A program made the translations under genes and the position numbers. The notes under the pieces were generated by a model. That model did no database searches. It was not told where the DNA came from and saw only the letters and a program-made list of their open reading frames with translations. DNA of 64,000 bases from Thermobifida alba (GTDB lineage Bacteria; Actinomycetota; Actinomycetes; Streptosporangiales; Streptosporangiaceae), in NCBI RefSeq assembly GCF_023208015.1, contig NZ_CP051627.1, positions 4,136,422-4,200,421 of the forward strand, read 5' to 3'. Positions within the stretch are counted from its first letter, which is position 1; every line of letters begins with the position of its first letter. Below, one piece after another: positions 36,904-44,076 of this stretch.

Positions 36904-38007
36904 TCACGAGGAGTTGGAGTCCGTGCCCGTCTGCTCCGTGGGCGCGGGGTGGCGGTACACGCCGGTGAGCCCGGCGGCCGAGGGCGGCACGGGAGCCGTG
37001 GCCTCGTCGTCGGTCGGCGCCGGGCCCGCGTAGCGGAAGCCGTGCGGGCGTCCCGGAAGCGGACGCACCGGCTGCGACGTCGGACCGGTCTTCGGCTGCT
37101 CCTCAGGAGCCAGGTTCACCGTGGCCTCGTTGTCGGCCGGGGCCAGTCGGGTGGTGGCCTCGTTGTCGGCCGGGGCCAGTCGGGTGGTGGCCTCGTCGTC
37201 GGAGGAGGCCGGCGCGCGCTGGGCCTCCTGGGCGGGGCCGGCGGACTCGGCGGGCTTCACGGGCGCGGACTCGGACGGCTTGGCGGCCGCGGGCTTGGCC
37301 GCGTCCGCGGAGCCGCTCTCGAAGTCGGAGCGCTTGAGCCCGGCGTCCAGCACCCCGGCCTTGGCCTCGGCCTGGAGCAGTTCGGCGAGGGTGTCGCGCA
37401 TGTCGTTGAGGCGGCGCAGCGCCTCCCCGTGTGTCGCGGTCAGCCGCTTCAGACGCCGGTCCGCGGTGTCGTGGATCTTGTTCGCGCGGGTCTCGGCCTC
37501 GTTCAGCTTGCGCTCGGCCTCCTTGGCGGCCTCGTCACGCAGCCGCTCCGCCTCCTGCTTGGTGGAGGTGAGCAGTTCCTTCGCCTCGTCCCGGGCGCCG
37601 TTGACGATCCGCTCCGCCTGCTCCTGGGCGCTCTTGACCTTGGCCTTGGCCTCCTCCTCGGCCTTGGCCCGGATCTCCTCGACCTCCTTGTCGACCTGGG
37701 CGCGCTTGTCCGCGGCCTCCTCCTCCGCGATGCGCAGGATGTTGGCCAGCCGTTCACTGATCTGCTCGTGCTCCGGCTTGACCGCGGCCTTGGCCTTGGC
37801 CTCGGCGAGCTCACGACGCAGCTGCTCCAGTTCGTCGTGGGCGCGGGCCAGCCGCTCCTGCAGGTCACGGAGCTGGTTGTGGTTGCGGACGACGAAGTCG
37901 TCGACCTGACGCTTGTCGTATCCGCCCTTGCGGACCGTCGGGAAGGCGTCTTCGCGCAGCAGGTTGGGGAGTATCTCTGGGCTGTGTTCGTTCATGTCCT
38001 TGATCAC
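36904..38007 (-). CDS. DivIVA/Wag31-like coiled-coil protein
   Basis: Cytoskeletal-type protein of about 367 residues. A DivIVA N-terminal segment (FPTVRKGGYDKRQVDDFVVR) leads into a coiled coil from about residue 40 to 215, rich in Ala/Glu/Lys/Arg. The last 140 residues are disordered and contain DDEATTRLAP, DNEATTRLAP, DNEATVNLAP and DDEATAPVPP. DivIVA proteins mark curved membrane at poles and septa and guide apical growth. The start is uncertain: GTG 38007 or ATG 37995, both with poor ribosome-binding sites. It is somewhat different from canonical Wag31 and not in the dcw cluster, so it is probably a paralogue. Confidence 0.85.
   Translation of the reverse strand: MIKDMNEHSPEILPNLLREDAFPTVRKGGYDKRQVDDFVVRNHNQLRDLQERLARAHDELEQLRRELAEAKAKAAVKPEHEQISERLANILRIAEEEAADKRAQVDKEVEEIRAKAEEEAKAKVKSAQEQAERIVNGARDEAKELLTSTKQEAERLRDEAAKEAERKLNEAETRANKIHDTADRRLKRLTATHGEALRRLNDMRDTLAELLQAEAKAGVLDAGLKRSDFESGSADAAKPAAAKPSESAPVKPAESAGPAQEAQRAPASSDDEATTRLAPADNEATTRLAPADNEATVNLAPEEQPKTGPTSQPVRPLPGRPHGFRYAGPAPTDDEATAPVPPSAAGLTGVYRHPAPTEQTGTDSNSS
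37121..37186. repeat. 33-bp tandem repeat in the DivIVA-like gene
   Basis: Two identical 33-bp units (37121-37153 and 37154-37186) followed by a partial third unit from 37187 encode repeated NEATTRLAPAD segments in the disordered tail. Confidence 0.85.
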
Positions 38008-38334
38008 CAGGTCGACAGTGGTCGGATCGGGGGGATGGGCTTTTACTCTCTGCCTATCGTTCCCATAACGCCTCCGGTACGAGGTGGGGGAATCCTAGTT
38101 CGCAACGGGGGAATGCGATATGCGAGCGGGGGCCGGACGGGGTGCGGGCGTGACCGCGGGGCGGCGGAGGCGTCCCGGCGGTGACGTGTCCGGACCGCTC
38201 GGCGGCGGCGTGCGCGCAGCCCCCGTCGAACCGGCCAGGGGCCACCCCACTAAAGTATGGGCGATCACGCCCGTGCATGGACGGTATCGGTCATCTTCCC
38301 TGTCCGCACGTGGTCCTGTTCAGGAGGAGGTCGC

Positions 38335-38874
38335 ATGTCCGGCGGCGGAGCGGGTCCGCGGATCGGATCGGCTGACTTCGGCGAGCCGGTGATCCACCCC
38401 GAGGCATGGATCGCGCCGGGAGCCGTGGTGGTGGGACGGGTCCGGATCGGCGCCCGCAGCAGTGTCTGGTACGGGTCGGTGCTGCGGGCCGACACCGAGG
38501 ACATCGTCGTGGGGGAGCGCTGCAACATCCAGGACCTGTGCTGCCTGCACGCGGATCCGGGGGAGCCCGCGATCCTGGGCGACGGGGTGAGCCTCGGCCA
38601 CAAGGCGATGGTGCACGGCGCGGTGGTCGAGGACGGCGCGCTGATCGGGATCAACGCCGTCGTGCTGGGCCGGGCGACGGTGGAGGCCGGAGCGCTCGTG
38701 GCCGCGGGCGCGCTGGTGCCTCCGGGCAAACGGGTCCCCGCGGGGACCCTGTGGGCGGGCGTACCGGGCAGGGTCGTCCGGGAGCTGACCGACGCCGAGC
38801 GGGAGAACCTGGTGGGGACCTCCGAACGGTACACGGGGTACGCCGCGCAGCACCGCGGCGTCGAGTGGCGCTGA
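38335..38874 (+). CDS. gamma-class carbonic anhydrase-like hexapeptide protein
   Basis: Left-handed beta-helix protein of 179 residues. Hexapeptide turns run through the middle (WIAPGAVVVGRVRIGARSSV, VVEDGALIGINAVVLGRATV). The three zinc histidines of the Cam/CamH family appear as LHADPG, GHKAMVHG, with the conserved Arg/Asp (VLRADTEDIVVGERCNIQD). Many family members have unknown substrates, so carbonic anhydrase activity is likely but unproven. The ATG at 38335 follows AGGAGGAGG; the longer frame upstream is rejected. Confidence 0.9.
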   Translation: MSGGGAGPRIGSADFGEPVIHPEAWIAPGAVVVGRVRIGARSSVWYGSVLRADTEDIVVGERCNIQDLCCLHADPGEPAILGDGVSLGHKAMVHGAVVEDGALIGINAVVLGRATVEAGALVAAGALVPPGKRVPAGTLWAGVPGRVVRELTDAERENLVGTSERYTGYAAQHRGVEWR

Positions 38875-39179: not shown

Positions 39180-42100
39180 TCATCCCTGACCAGCAGGTTT
39201 CCCCTCTGTCTGCACCTCCCGCCGCTCCTCCCGGTCGCGCAGCCACCGGCCGAGCAGCGACGCGGCGACGGCGAACCCCGCCGACGCGCCGAGTCCGACC
39301 AGCCAGCCGTACGGCGTCAACGGCCGACAGCCGAAGAAGCGGCTGGCCCCCGGCCACTGCACGATGGCGCCCAGGACGGCGAAGGACGCCGCCCCCGAGG
39401 CGAGCACCACCGGATCCCGCCCGCCCGCGGCGACGGTCTGGGCCAACTGGGCGCCCACCAGGGCGACCAGTGCCGCCGTGTTCGCCTGCCCGCCGGCACC
39501 GCCGAGCAGCCAGGCGGTCAGCGCGGCCGAGGCGGTGGTGACCGAGCGGATCACGATGTCGCGGTTGAGCGCCGACCCCAGGGACTGCTCCGGCCCCTCG
39601 TCGAGCAGCTCTTCCTCGCGCACCCCGTACGGCCGCCGCGTGGCCAGGGCGATGGACGGCAGCATGTCGGTGAGCAGGTTCACCAGGAGCAGTTGCCGCA
39701 CGTTGAGCGGGATCGTGCCGCTGAGCAGTCCCGCGCCGACGGTGAAAGCGACCTCGCCCAGGTTGCCGCCGAGCAGCACCGACAGGGCGTTGCGGGTGGA
39801 CCGCCACATCGCCCGGCTGTCGGCGATGGCGTGCGCGATGGTCTCGATCCGGTTGTCGGTGACCACCACCGACGCCGCCGCGCGCGCCGCGGGGGTGGCG
39901 CGCGTGCCCAACGCGATCCCCACGTCGGCCAGCCGGATCGCGGGGGCGTCGTTCGCGCCGTCGCCGGTGACGGCGACCACGTGCCCGTCCTCGTGCAGCG
40001 CCCGGACGATCCGGGCCTTCTGCTCCGGGCTGACCCGGGCGAACACGGACACCTCGGAGACCACCCCGGTCAGCGCCTCGTCGGAGAGCTCCGCCAGCTC
40101 CGCCCCCGTCATGGTCCTGCCGTCCAGCAGGCCCAGTTCGGCCGCGACGGCCTCCGCGGTACTGGGGTGGTCGCCGGTGACCATGACCACCCTGACCCCC
40201 GCCGACGCCAGCCGCTCCACCGCACCGGCCGCGGCGGAGCGGACCGGGTCGGAGATCCCGACCAGGCCGAGCAGCCGCAGGCCCCGGATGCGTCCGTCCT
40301 CCAGGTCGCTCCGGTCGGAGGCGGCCCGCTCGGCCACGGCCAGCACCCGGTAGCCCTGTCTGGCCAGCCGCTCCACCTCGTGGGCCACCGTGGCCCGGGC
40401 GCGTGCGTCGAAGGGCGCCGTCCGCCCCTGCTCCGTCCAGGTGTCGCAGCGCTCCAGAACGACCTCCGGCGCGCCCTTCACCGCGATCAGCTGCCCCCCG
40501 GGGGTCCGGCCGAGCACGGCGTGGTAGCCGCGTCCGGGCTCGAAGGGCAGTTCGTCGACCCGCTCCCAGGCCCCCACCCCCTCGTCGGGGGCCATGTCCA
40601 GCCACTTCGCGCCGCGCGCGACCGCCCGGTCCGTGGGGTGCGCCAGCTTGGCGCTCCCGTTGCGCTCGGGGTTGGCCCGCAGTGCTCCGGCGATGACGGG
40701 ACGCATCCGCTCCGGGGGCCTCGTGCGCTTGCCCACGGGAGCGGACTCGACGCCGTCGGAGACCAGCCGCAGCCGCAGCCGCCCCTCGGTCAGCGTCCCG
40801 GTCTTGTCGAAGCAGAGGACGTCGACCCGGCCCAGCGGTTCGATGGTCGTCGGGTCCCGGACGAGCACGCCGTGGCGGGAGAGTCGCCGCGCGGTGGCGA
40901 GCTGGGCGGCCGTGGCCAGGAAGGGCAGCCCTTCCGGCACGGCGCCCACGGTGAGTGCCACCGCCGGGCCCAGCGCCTGGGCCAGGCTCCGCCCGCGCAG
41001 CAGCTGTCCCACCATGAGCACGGCTCCCGCCCCCAGGGAGAGGGGCAGGGTGACGGCGGTGAGCTCCCGGAGCCGGGCCTCCACCCCTCCCCGGGGGCCC
41101 TCCCCCGCCCGCGCGCGCATGGTGCGGCCGACCTCGGTGCGCTCCCCGGTGGCGACGACGACCGCGACGGCGTCACCCGCCGCGACGACCGTCCCCTCGT
41201 ACAGCATGGAGTGCCGGTCGGCGACGGCCCGCGCGGCGCTCGGCCGGGCGCTCTTGGCGACCGGCTGCGACTCGCCGGTCAGACCGGACTCGTCGACCTC
41301 CAGGGCCTCGGCGGCCAGCAGGCGGCAGTCGGCCGGGACGGCGTCCCCGGCGGTGAGCGCGATCACATCACCCGGCACCAGCCGGTCGGCGGTCTCCGCG
41401 ACCGGCTCCGGACTGTCCGGACGCCGGACCGAGGTCCGGACCGCGCTCAGGTCGACGAGTCTGCGCAGTGCCCGGTCCGCGCCGATCCGCTGGGCGCCGG
41501 AGACGACCGCGTTCACCCCGAGCACCGCGACGATGAGCAGCGCGTCGACGGCCGAGCCCACCGCGGCCGAGAGTCCGGCCCCCACCGCGAGCACGGGCGT
41601 CAGGGGGTTGTCCAACTCCTCCACCATGAGCTGGCCGAAGCCGGGGGCGCGGTCCCGTTCGCCGTCGGCCTCGGCAGGGCGCCGCCGGGTCGCCTCGTCC
41701 TCGCTCAGTCCCGTCGTCGAGGACCTGAGTCTGGAGAGCACCGCCTCGGCGGACCAGGCGTGCCAGGGGACGCGCTCCTGCGGTACCGGGTCGGGACGCC
41801 GTGCCGCCTCGACGCCGGCCCAGGCGCCCCGGGCTATCGCGACCAGGATCGCCGTGTTGACCGCCGTGGACGCTCTCCGGTCGGCGGTCGCCGCGGGGCC
41901 CGCCGCGGTGAGCAGTGCCCCGGCCGTCGCCCCCAGGGCGGCGATCCGCACGCCGATCTCGCTCATCCGCCGCGCGGTCCGCACCGCGTCGACGACCAGG
42001 CAGGCCCCGGCGAGGTCGGGACCGCACAGCAGGTGGGCCGCCCAGGCGGGGGCGGCCGAGCGTCCGGTGATCCCGATGCCCACGTCGGAGGCGGCCAGCG

Positions 42101-43574
42101 CGGCCTGCTCCCGGGCGCTGACGAGCATCACCCCGTACCCCTCCTCCTGGAGGGAGCGCACCGACTCCGCCAGGGAGGTGCCGCCCGGGACGGTCCGGTC
42201 GGCGCGCAGCCGTTCACCGAGACGGCTGCGCACCCCGGCGACCACCACCGGGCCGACCTTCCGGGCGGACTCGACGACGGCTTCGGCCAGCGGGTCGAGT
42301 TCGGGCAGCACCGAGACCAGGGCGACGGCCTCGTCGCCGCGGGAGAGGAGAAGCAGTCGGGCGCCCCGGTCGCGGCAGGCGCGCGCCCACTCCCTGAACT
42401 CCCGGGGGATCTGCGCCGGGGACGCCCTGACCGCGGACCAGCCGTCGCGTTCGTGGCGCCGCTCGATCCGGGTCAGGTCGATCAGTCCGTGGGCCCGGCG
42501 GAGCGCCTCCTCGGCGGTGACCTCCTCCGTCAGCGGCACCACCTCCTCGAGCGCCAGATCGCCGGTGGCCAGCACGGAGGCGTCGAGGACGACCAGGTTG
42601 ACGCGGTCCAGACGGCGCAGGGCCTCGACGTCGCGGACGAGGACGCCCCGGGAGGCCAGGGCGCGGCCGAACTGGATGGCGAACGCGTCGCGCCCCAGCG
42701 TCCCCGCCCGGGGGACGCCGGAGACCAGCAGGCCCTCGGCCCGGTGCAGGTCCCGGGTGATCGCGTAGGTCGCTCCGAAGGCCGCGAAGGTGAACGGTGC
42801 CGTGCGGATGGCCTTCTCGACGGGCCCCTGCGGCAGCGGGACCGGGCGTTCTCCGGCGGCGACCGGGTCCGTGCGGAAGGCGCCGGGGGCGGAGGCGAGG
42901 TCGTCGTCCCCGCGGTGCCAGGCCTGCTGGTGCGCCAGGTTCTCCACCAGGCGGCCCAGCCGGTGCAGGGCGTCGATCGCCAGCCCGGTGGGTTCCTGGG
43001 CGAGGGTGTGCGAGAGGGTGACCCCGGTTGAGAAGACCAGGTCGGTGGCGCGCGGACCGATCCTCCGTTCCAGTTCGCCGCGGATGCGCGGGGTCATCCC
43101 GGCCAGCACCAGGGAGGGGGTCACCGCGGAGGGGAGCGGGGCGGCGCGCAGCGCTCTGCCGAGGAGGGCGCCCGCGAAGCCCGCGACGTCGGCGCCCACG
43201 AGCGCGACCTCGCGCAGCACGGTCCGCTCGTCGCCGGGGTGCGGGACGGGGGCGAACTCCGCCGTTTCGTGGCCGTACCGCTGCTCCACCTCGGCGACGG
43301 CGGCGGCGAGGTCGTCGACCGGCACCTTGTCCTCATGGAAGACCCTGACCCGGCCGAGCACCGCGTTGACCTCCGCGCGGTGCACCCCGCCGATCCGGGC
43401 CAGCCGGTTCTCCAGGGCGCGCGCCATACGCTCGGTCCCGGGCCGGTGGACGCCCCTGACCCGCAGGTCGGTGTGGCCGGCCCCGCGGCGGGCCTGACGG
43501 GAGTCCGCGGCGCCGGGAAGCGACCGGGCGAGCCGGGCGACGCCGCCGAACAACTCTTTCAGTGACATATCCAT
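39180..43574 (-). CDS. giant P-type cation ATPase, CtpI-like, with degenerate N-terminal ATPase half
   Basis: 1464 residues. The C-terminal half (about 600-1464) is a complete P2-like pump: LTGES (765-769), VPEGLP (879-884), DKTGT (923-927), VTGDHP, TGDGANDAP (1203-1211) and paired C-terminal membrane helices. The N-terminal half repeats the same order in decayed form: RGVLVRDVEALRRLDRVNLV then VLDASVLATG (DKTGT position 331-335 is DASVL), and ASDVGIGITGRSAAP before helices, matching LADVGIALGTRATPA in the second half. Residues 34-100 look like an HMA-type domain without CxxC. The size and plan resemble mycobacterial CtpI/CtpH. The transported ion is unknown. Start ATG 43574; ATG 43568 is possible. 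Confidence 0.9.
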   Translation of the reverse strand: MDMSLKELFGGVARLARSLPGAADSRQARRGAGHTDLRVRGVHRPGTERMARALENRLARIGGVHRAEVNAVLGRVRVFHEDKVPVDDLAAAVAEVEQRYGHETAEFAPVPHPGDERTVLREVALVGADVAGFAGALLGRALRAAPLPSAVTPSLVLAGMTPRIRGELERRIGPRATDLVFSTGVTLSHTLAQEPTGLAIDALHRLGRLVENLAHQQAWHRGDDDLASAPGAFRTDPVAAGERPVPLPQGPVEKAIRTAPFTFAAFGATYAITRDLHRAEGLLVSGVPRAGTLGRDAFAIQFGRALASRGVLVRDVEALRRLDRVNLVVLDASVLATGDLALEEVVPLTEEVTAEEALRRAHGLIDLTRIERRHERDGWSAVRASPAQIPREFREWARACRDRGARLLLLSRGDEAVALVSVLPELDPLAEAVVESARKVGPVVVAGVRSRLGERLRADRTVPGGTSLAESVRSLQEEGYGVMLVSAREQAALAASDVGIGITGRSAAPAWAAHLLCGPDLAGACLVVDAVRTARRMSEIGVRIAALGATAGALLTAAGPAATADRRASTAVNTAILVAIARGAWAGVEAARRPDPVPQERVPWHAWSAEAVLSRLRSSTTGLSEDEATRRRPAEADGERDRAPGFGQLMVEELDNPLTPVLAVGAGLSAAVGSAVDALLIVAVLGVNAVVSGAQRIGADRALRRLVDLSAVRTSVRRPDSPEPVAETADRLVPGDVIALTAGDAVPADCRLLAAEALEVDESGLTGESQPVAKSARPSAARAVADRHSMLYEGTVVAAGDAVAVVVATGERTEVGRTMRARAGEGPRGGVEARLRELTAVTLPLSLGAGAVLMVGQLLRGRSLAQALGPAVALTVGAVPEGLPFLATAAQLATARRLSRHGVLVRDPTTIEPLGRVDVLCFDKTGTLTEGRLRLRLVSDGVESAPVGKRTRPPERMRPVIAGALRANPERNGSAKLAHPTDRAVARGAKWLDMAPDEGVGAWERVDELPFEPGRGYHAVLGRTPGGQLIAVKGAPEVVLERCDTWTEQGRTAPFDARARATVAHEVERLARQGYRVLAVAERAASDRSDLEDGRIRGLRLLGLVGISDPVRSAAAGAVERLASAGVRVVMVTGDHPSTAEAVAAELGLLDGRTMTGAELAELSDEALTGVVSEVSVFARVSPEQKARIVRALHEDGHVVAVTGDGANDAPAIRLADVGIALGTRATPAARAAASVVVTDNRIETIAHAIADSRAMWRSTRNALSVLLGGNLGEVAFTVGAGLLSGTIPLNVRQLLLVNLLTDMLPSIALATRRPYGVREEELLDEGPEQSLGSALNRDIVIRSVTTASAALTAWLLGGAGGQANTAALVALVGAQLAQTVAAGGRDPVVLASGAASFAVLGAIVQWPGASRFFGCRPLTPYGWLVGLGASAGFAVAASLLGRWLRDREERREVQTEGKPAGQG

Positions 43575-43647: not shown

Positions 43648-44076
43648 TCAGGACTTCTTGCCCCGGCTCTTCTTTTCGGCCACCTCGGCCACGGTTTCCG
43701 GGGTCGCCTGGGACTTGGTCTTTCGGTCGTCGGAGGACTTCGCGGACTCCTTCTTCTCGTCCTCCGCCCCGCCCTCGGTTTTCTGGCCGAGCAGGCGCTC
43801 GAAGGAGGGCTGGTGCTCCCCGCCCTGCAGGGGCCGTCGGGCGATCGCGGTGCCGACGCCGATCGCGGCGGCCACCGGCCACTCGATGACGCCGAAAGCG
43901 GCCAGTGCGCCCAGTCCCGCGTAGTAGACGAACTGGTCCTTCGGGGGCAGGTAGCCCGCTGCGGTACGCCCGGCCGAGGAGACCTCCTCCTTGTTCACCT
44001 TCGGTACGCGGGGAACAGGAATCCTGAGTTTGTGGATTTTGAACTCAGGAGCGACGACAGGTATGGTGATCGCCAT
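43648..44076 (-). CDS. small single-pass membrane protein upstream of the P-type ATPase
   Basis: 142 residues: a Pro/Val/Lys N-terminus (FKIHKLRIPVPRVPKV), one glycine-rich membrane helix at about 49-79 (YYAGLGALAAFGVIEWPVAA), then a highly charged Lys/Glu/Ser tail ending in EKKSRGKKS. The ATG at 44076 follows GGAG by about nine bases. It is 73 bp upstream of the ATPase on the same strand, so the two are probably co-transcribed. The layout resembles mycobacterial PacL-type partners of metal ATPases (DUF1490) only in general plan; no metal-binding His/Cys cluster is visible. Confidence 0.75.
   Translation of the reverse strand: MAITIPVVAPEFKIHKLRIPVPRVPKVNKEEVSSAGRTAAGYLPPKDQFVYYAGLGALAAFGVIEWPVAAAIGVGTAIARRPLQGGEHQPSFERLLGQKTEGGAEDEKKESAKSSDDRKTKSQATPETVAEVAEKKSRGKKS

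Follow-up and report, generated by a model that had tools for sequence, protein, structure and literature searches.

The window, a 64,000-nucleotide stretch of Thermobifida alba DNA, carries on its minus strand (positions 39180–43574) an open frame with an ATG start for a pump of 1464 residues, made up of a pseudo-P1B half followed by a P2-type pump. The best explanation for the whole protein, to which we assign a probability of roughly 0.6, is that it is a Ca2+ exporter with a built-in pseudo-P1B half used for control or anchoring. Comparison of sequences supports the view that the pump combines two classes of P-type ATPase in one chimeric protein, and the dead state of its N-terminal half, the selection acting on that half and its linkage to a small membrane protein likewise rest on comparison.

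Architecture of the two halves

For the comparative analyses, 114 sources gave 112 rows, as L112 and L195 had no long P-type frame. A set of 107 N-terminal halves was taken from these by leaving out two ordinary P1B pumps (L199 and L200) together with L053, L054 and L203, in which no single match to the N-terminal half spanned more than 400 positions.

The C-terminal half (residues 604–1464; 39183–41765, minus strand) forms a complete P2-type pump whose site residues are of the Ca type. A Pfam scan of the 1464-residue protein confined the P-type domains (E1-E2_ATPase, Hydrolase, Cation_ATPase_N and Cation_ATPase_C) to this half, at residues ~604–1440. As the original prediction held, every catalytic motif is found here: TGES at 766 (the sole copy), DKTGT at 923, MVTGD at 1131, GDGAND at 1204 and ADVGI at 1216. 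Across the family, DKTGT and TGE were each present in 107/107 C-terminal halves and GDGxND in 105. The best solved relative in a PDB search was the Listeria Ca2+-ATPase lmo0841 (340 bits), followed by SPCA1 and SERCA. Glu881 in M4, Asn1271 and Glu1274 in M5, and Asn1299, Thr1302 and Asp1303 in M6 were invariant among 67 sequences, and we take these six residues to be the equivalents of the SERCA Ca2+ ligands. The best NCBIfam model of the pump was the Ca2+-type P2 model TIGR01522 (P2A, PMR1-type Ca2+-ATPase), with 397 bits against a curated cut-off of 798 that the pump did not reach. Thus the C-terminal half shares with the P2A Ca2+-ATPases (Listeria lmo0841, SPCA and SERCA) the full motif set and the Ca-type site residues, but differs from them in carrying a 600-residue pseudo-pump and in falling below the TIGR01522 cut-off. 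We consider it likely that this half is a Ca2+-type exporter; it would hydrolyse ATP and export Ca2+ or a similar cation by itself, and would be self-sufficient.

The N-terminal half (residues 33–604; 41763–43478, minus strand) was read as a degenerate P1B-type ATPase from an AlphaFold model, from PDB matches led by P1B pumps and from hhalign. The model of residues 33–604 (mean pLDDT 95.0, pTM 0.93) showed a ferredoxin-like HMA domain, helices readable as MA, MB and M1–M6, a P-domain and a small N-domain remnant, with no A-domain. The HMA-like domain (~35–100; 43275–43472) has no CxxC metal site and was recognised from profile matches to CopA metal-binding domains, among them a two-domain chain that the PDB profile search matched at E 5.9e-13. 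It is followed by the helices read as MA, MB, M1 and M2 (~116–227; 42894–43229), which were assigned from the secondary structure of the model and from the way it superposes on P1B pumps, starting at model residue ~83. Where an A-domain would be expected, between the putative M2 and M3 helices, the model apparently has just ~31 residues (~228–258; 42801–42893); this short linker coincided with a gap in the alignment with P1B pumps, and no E1-E2_ATPase match was obtained at E 0.01 when 75 N-terminal halves were scanned singly with Pfam. In the helices read as M3–M4 (~259–308; 42651–42800), the model and an 80-row alignment placed Pro288 and then Arg289 where P1B pumps have CPC or CPH. The first P-domain segment (309–338; 42561–42650) has DASVL at position 331 in place of DKTGT, as had been noticed originally, and the codon of Asp331 lies at 42582–42584. 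A shrunken N-domain remnant (~339–428; 42291–42560) comes next in the model; in rows L053 and L054 this remnant is mostly lost. The second P-domain segment (~429–521; 42012–42290) has lost GDGxND in the alignment and kept Asp497 of the ADVGI segment, and the helices read as M5–M6 (~522–591; 41802–42011) close the half at the point where P1B pumps also end. The eight-helix order MA–M6 of P1B pumps, with the P-domain between M4 and M5, is therefore present in the predicted model, and the HMA-type fold of the N-terminal domain is present in both the model and the profile searches.

The original prediction described this protein as the P-type order repeated twice. Both halves are indeed P-type, and residues ~250–570 gave P-type matches by profile and by structure; the description does not stand for the A-domain, which is missing from the N-terminal half as a whole and not just in its TGES motif. 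The two segments said to be alignable between the halves are so, namely the strand before the P-site (RGVLVRDVEAL at 309 and HGVLVRDPTTI at 901) and the ADVGI segment (SDVGI at 496 and ADVGI at 1216). Compared with the P1B ATPases CopA, ZntA and CadA, the N-terminal half has in common the HMA-like domain, the eight helices, the P-domain and a short N-domain, but it is without A-domain, CxxC, CPx, DKTGT and GDGxND, and is fused to another pump.

A linked small membrane protein and the role of the N-terminal half

Upstream of the pump gene, at a distance of 73 nt, lies a gene for a small membrane protein of 142 residues (43648–44076, minus strand; ATG at 44076, with AGAGGAG just upstream). The protein has a single hydrophobic stretch that includes a G-rich motif, its tail is charged, and it matched nothing in Pfam (up to E 5) or in NCBIfam. 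When neighbouring frames were clustered, it was the single clear neighbour family, directly upstream of the pump in 47 of 80 loci; no other cluster of open frames, counted for frames of all kinds, many of which are not genes, occurred in more than 11 of the 80. A profile of the small protein (A4) was positive in 56/80 loci, and 56 of its 57 matches lay upstream of the pump; its 32 rows come from these same loci, so that the phylum scan alone is independent. No small protein was detected close to the pump in 24 of the 80 loci, a few of these having little DNA upstream. The phylum scan with the small-protein profile gave 17 matches in 15 genomes including that of T. alba, and all 15 genomes also carry the N-terminal half. 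The small protein adjoined the pump in 14 of the 17 matches, the other three being L287, L291 and L296, and four of the 17 were weak (E 2.5e-6 to 4.7e-4). In L285 the small-protein domain lies within the pump frame itself (1784 residues), after the pump and before Glu/Ala and Lys/Ala repeats.

The arrangement of the genes varies. The small protein is on the opposite strand in Acrocarpospora (L107, L117 and L126), downstream of the pump in L286, L288–L290 and L292, from a genus with CtpH/CtpI-like pumps, and present in two copies on opposite strands behind one pump in L293 (G245:C81). In the window, the pump is also neighboured by genes for a hexapeptide-repeat transferase-like protein (38257–38874, plus strand) and a DivIVA-like protein (36904–38007, minus strand), with nothing to tie either to the system.

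The combination of a live pump with a dead P-type half, which is what the original prediction saw, was found to be retained in the relatives examined, so the regulatory, partner or lid role that it proposed for this half is reasonable. On balance we lean towards an accessory role, regulatory or as a scaffold, exercised together with the small protein. The N-terminal half would then be a fixed accessory subunit packed against the live pump, whose activity, stability or location it would set; its HMA-like domain and membrane bundle would dock on both the pump and the small protein. A predicted model covering both halves (residues 118–1317) was of moderate confidence (pLDDT 84.6, pTM 0.73) and spoke neither for nor against a fixed packing; contact between the halves, control and partner binding are inferred. 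PacL proteins interact with the N-terminal metal-binding domains of mycobacterial P1B pumps and cluster these pumps, according to the available part of PMC13043812. By analogy, the HMA-like domain is the likely cytoplasmic docking site and the small protein its likely partner.

The same analogy bears on whether the N-terminal half and the small protein might do no more than cluster the pump or anchor it in the membrane, with no allosteric control. That PacL proteins cluster or anchor P1B pumps through their N-terminal metal-binding domains speaks for such a scaffold, as does the similar plan of the small protein; PacL (DUF1490) proteins, as portrayed in the available part of PMC13043812, are likewise encoded beside a P-type pump and possess a TM helix together with a charged tail of repetitive sequence. 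However, profile comparison revealed no PacL homology, and we regard a pure scaffold as unlikely. The small protein differs from the PacL proteins in lacking a DUF1490 profile match and in being linked to a P2-type chimera; its membership in the PacL/DUF1490 family was rejected, with an hhalign probability of 0.1 and no Pfam match up to E 5.

We think it improbable that the N-terminal half still moves or senses an ion, as a conduit driven by the C-terminal half in the way that KdpB drives KdpA, or as a metal-sensing half. In favour of this, the eight helices of the N-terminal half are kept with high model confidence, the M4 proline (Pro288) is kept in 78 of 80 aligned rows, and the fusion is kept in the relatives scored. 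Against it stand the ligands. CxxC was found in none of the 107 N-terminal halves in the first 110 residues, which hold the HMA part, and the CPx ligands of M4 are replaced, with Lys or Arg next to the proline in 78/80; CPC, CPH and SPC were absent from M4 of the N-terminal halves, and such triplets occurred in 3/107, all outside M4. Classical metal binding by the HMA-like domain is likewise unlikely because the cysteine pair is missing.

Class and origin of the N-terminal half

In all probability the N-terminal half is a decayed P1B (heavy-metal) pump. Pfam gave nothing at its cut-off for residues 1–610, and NCBIfam gave a P1B hint (TIGR01525, E 1.4e-4) with CopZ matched weakly. In hhalign, the N-terminal half matched its own C-terminal half at 1.7e-13, but P1B was matched better, at 4.5e-25 in an alignment of 495 columns that runs from HMA to M5; P2 and KdpB followed at 2.5e-9 and 1.7e-7. 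The profile–profile score was 182 with P1B (controls: 14–24 with eight N profiles whose columns had been shuffled, 18 with the N profile reversed) and 101 with the own C-terminal half (shuffled 15–22, reversed 20). With the HMM of the N-terminal half, P1B pumps scored 11–68 bits in sets fetched mostly with other queries; the maxima there were 22 for P2 pumps, 15 for KdpB and 17 for the C-terminal halves of the family.

The signal was then divided by region. The HMA part of the profile scored above 10 bits only in P1B rows. The P-domain part exceeded 10 bits in 32/32 P1B rows (median 29.8), a set called unselected that does include two rows which the N profile had found (L199 and L200) and duplicate genes (L188/L252 and L233/L257); the other classes had medians of ~11 and maxima of 23.3 (C-terminal halves), 15.8 (P2) and 23.6 (KdpB), so that the score ranges overlap. 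The P-site segment alone (308–345) left the classes unseparated, with medians of 11.1 and 6.7 for P1B and 6.8 for the C-terminal halves, and the TM stretch alone (115–306) gave no informative sequence match. Among pumps outside the family that scored high with the N profile in the scan of 396 genomes of the phylum, all 20 that were fetched, from the top of these matches though not strictly the 20 best, were P1B by M4 motif or TIGR01525. A PDB profile search with the N-terminal half returned 42 sequences, led by ATP7B, HMA4 and CopA metal-binding domains. The matches below E 0.001 were P1B pumps, their metal-binding domains and CopZ-type chaperones; P2 pumps were absent up to E 1, where two H+-ATPases (0.26 and 0.76) and a few unrelated chains appeared. 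When 75 N-terminal halves were scanned singly, TIGR01525 was matched by 21 and Pfam HMA by 18, the T. alba one being without an HMA match. The P-type models matched in this way were only those of HMA/P1B families, plus the general TIGR01494 once; no P2 family was matched, and there were two stray Pfam matches.

Structural comparison by VIA-align, in which rows with Z within 1 of each other count as tied, ranked CadA (19.1), ZntA (18.8), CopA (18.6), KdpB (17.7) and SERCA (15.5) as relatives of the model of the N-terminal half. P1B pumps also led in Foldseek, with TM-scores by query length of only 0.25–0.49 and large rmsd. Structure by itself leaves P1B and KdpB unseparated, and it is the HMA domain and the sequence that separate them. 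In a 74-row tree of the P-domain region, the N-terminal halves, C-terminal halves, KdpB and P1B each formed a single group; the split {N, P1B} had a support of 98/91, and the branches of the N-terminal halves were long. Because the AU test of the P-domain region did not reject the N- and C-terminal halves as one clade (p 0.403), the P1B origin rests mainly on architecture and profile scores.

That test, with the match between the N and C profiles and its score of 101 against 15–22 for shuffled profiles, is what can be said for an internal duplication, by which the N-terminal half would be a decayed copy of the P2-type C-terminal half with the HMA-like domain added separately. P1B was nevertheless the better match in the profile, PDB and structure searches, and the tree joined the N-terminal half to P1B. 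Moreover, an HMA domain, eight helices in this order and a stop after M6 are characteristic of P1B pumps, and both the HMA-like domain and the extra N-terminal helices are foreign to P2 pumps. The description of this half as a decayed copy of the pump itself is therefore not favoured, the N-terminal half scoring higher with P1B than with its own C-terminal half, P2 or KdpB, and we consider an internal duplication very improbable. On the P1B reading, the N-terminal half would be a pump in which the P1B-like fold survives while the A-domain, a large part of the N-domain, the phosphorylation signature, the metal ligands and the loop that binds Mg have been lost.

Retention across the family and relation to CtpH and CtpI

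The catalytic motifs are lost throughout the family. Neither DKTG nor GDGxND was found in any of the 107 N-terminal halves, nor was TGES, with one chance TGEA in L125. In the 80 aligned N-terminal halves, Asp331 was kept in 77 and Asp497 in 80, and the lysine of DKTGT in none. Eight pairs gave dN/dS values of 0.17–0.40 for the N-terminal half and 0.065–0.30 for the C-terminal half, the former being higher in 8/8. Judged from these sequence comparisons, the N-terminal half is under purifying selection, with a constraint that appears weaker than that on the C-terminal half yet clear.

The N-terminal half was found in 19 of 60 relatives with the own genome counted, one of them (G050) being a weak match to an ordinary 744-residue pump. 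An alignment of 20 N-terminal halves (A1) was also searched against the 396 genomes of the phylum, where strong matches lay mostly in frames of ~1400–1900 residues and also in shorter frames, several of them at contig ends. The best 80 of 171 relatives, from 84,980 species genomes, were all from Actinomycetota, and plasmid records gave no match. In the phylum sample, where at most three candidates per genome were scored in the N-profile scan and at most two in the C-half scan, all 32 relatives of the C-terminal half with at least 590 bits carry the N-terminal half or stop at a contig end. Twenty-eight are in frames of at least 1415 residues with matches to the N-terminal half; of the four in shorter frames, three have N-half sequence beside the C-terminal half, and the frame position of the fourth (G419) points to a cut at the contig start. 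Below 590 bits, ordinary P2 pumps of ~900 residues began at 559, but one fused pump, that of G354, scored 540 and lay among them, so that the 590-bit step is no clean border.

The idea that the N-terminal half is a non-functional relic being lost has on its side its faster evolution in 8/8 pairs and the mostly lost N-domain remnant in L053 and L054, but is hardly tenable given the dN/dS of 0.17–0.40, the retention of this half in all of the 32 relatives not cut short of it, and the residues that are invariant in the pump family across 67–75 sequences.

A second, standalone degenerate P-type ATPase is encoded in the same genome outside the window (L193:1320–3908, plus strand; G000:C1:3431319–3433907). 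This P2-like protein of 863 residues has CVPEAGVL for DKTGT, TGRR for TGES, GGGAHD for GDGxND and PLGL for PEGL. It was also seen in the three other genomes of the genus, at 71–77% identity and with varying broken P-site motifs; in 19 more distant rows, DKTGT was intact in 17 and unreadable in two.

KdpFABC combines a P-type pump with additional subunits, including small ones that span the membrane once, and the T. alba pump differs from it in that its extra part is itself a fused pseudo-P-type pump. Plasmodium guanylyl cyclase-alpha also joins a P-type ATPase, in that case a P4-ATPase domain, to another enzyme; there, the partner is a cyclase rather than another P-type pump, and activity reportedly depends on the ATPase domain (available part of PMC7858053). 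In the open-licence literature searched, we found no description of one P-type class as a fused accessory of another, and no account of the N-terminal segment as a P1B relic.

The pump family is FUPA24 (TC 3.A.3.24; CtpH/CtpI), as assigned from the published description and from motif variants. According to the available part of PMC3573892, these proteins are of approximately twofold length, have a large segment at the N-terminus and carry their functional motifs in the C-terminal half, all of which the T. alba pump shares; the PEGL printed there for CtpI was found in L202 and L205, and the PEGM with DKTGTLS printed for CtpH in L203 and L204. That paper treats the N-terminal segment as just a large extra segment, not as a dead P1B pump, and describes no small partner gene, in agreement with the original remark that such large CtpI/CtpH pumps are known and that the additional half had not been explained. 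In the part available of a 2023 review, CtpH and CtpI form an isolated branch of the P-type tree and are called uncharacterised (PMC10654040), and calcium pumping by CtpH is cited in the available part of a 2022 paper (PMC9180918).

More tentatively, a dead heavy-metal pump may have been recruited as a permanent accessory subunit of a calcium pump which, with its dedicated small membrane protein, could make up a bacterial P-type ATPase of several parts, the pseudo-pump controlling or anchoring a live pump from a different class. For CtpH and CtpI, the pseudo-P1B reading and the linked small protein provide a map of the domains, sites for truncation and a candidate partner gene.
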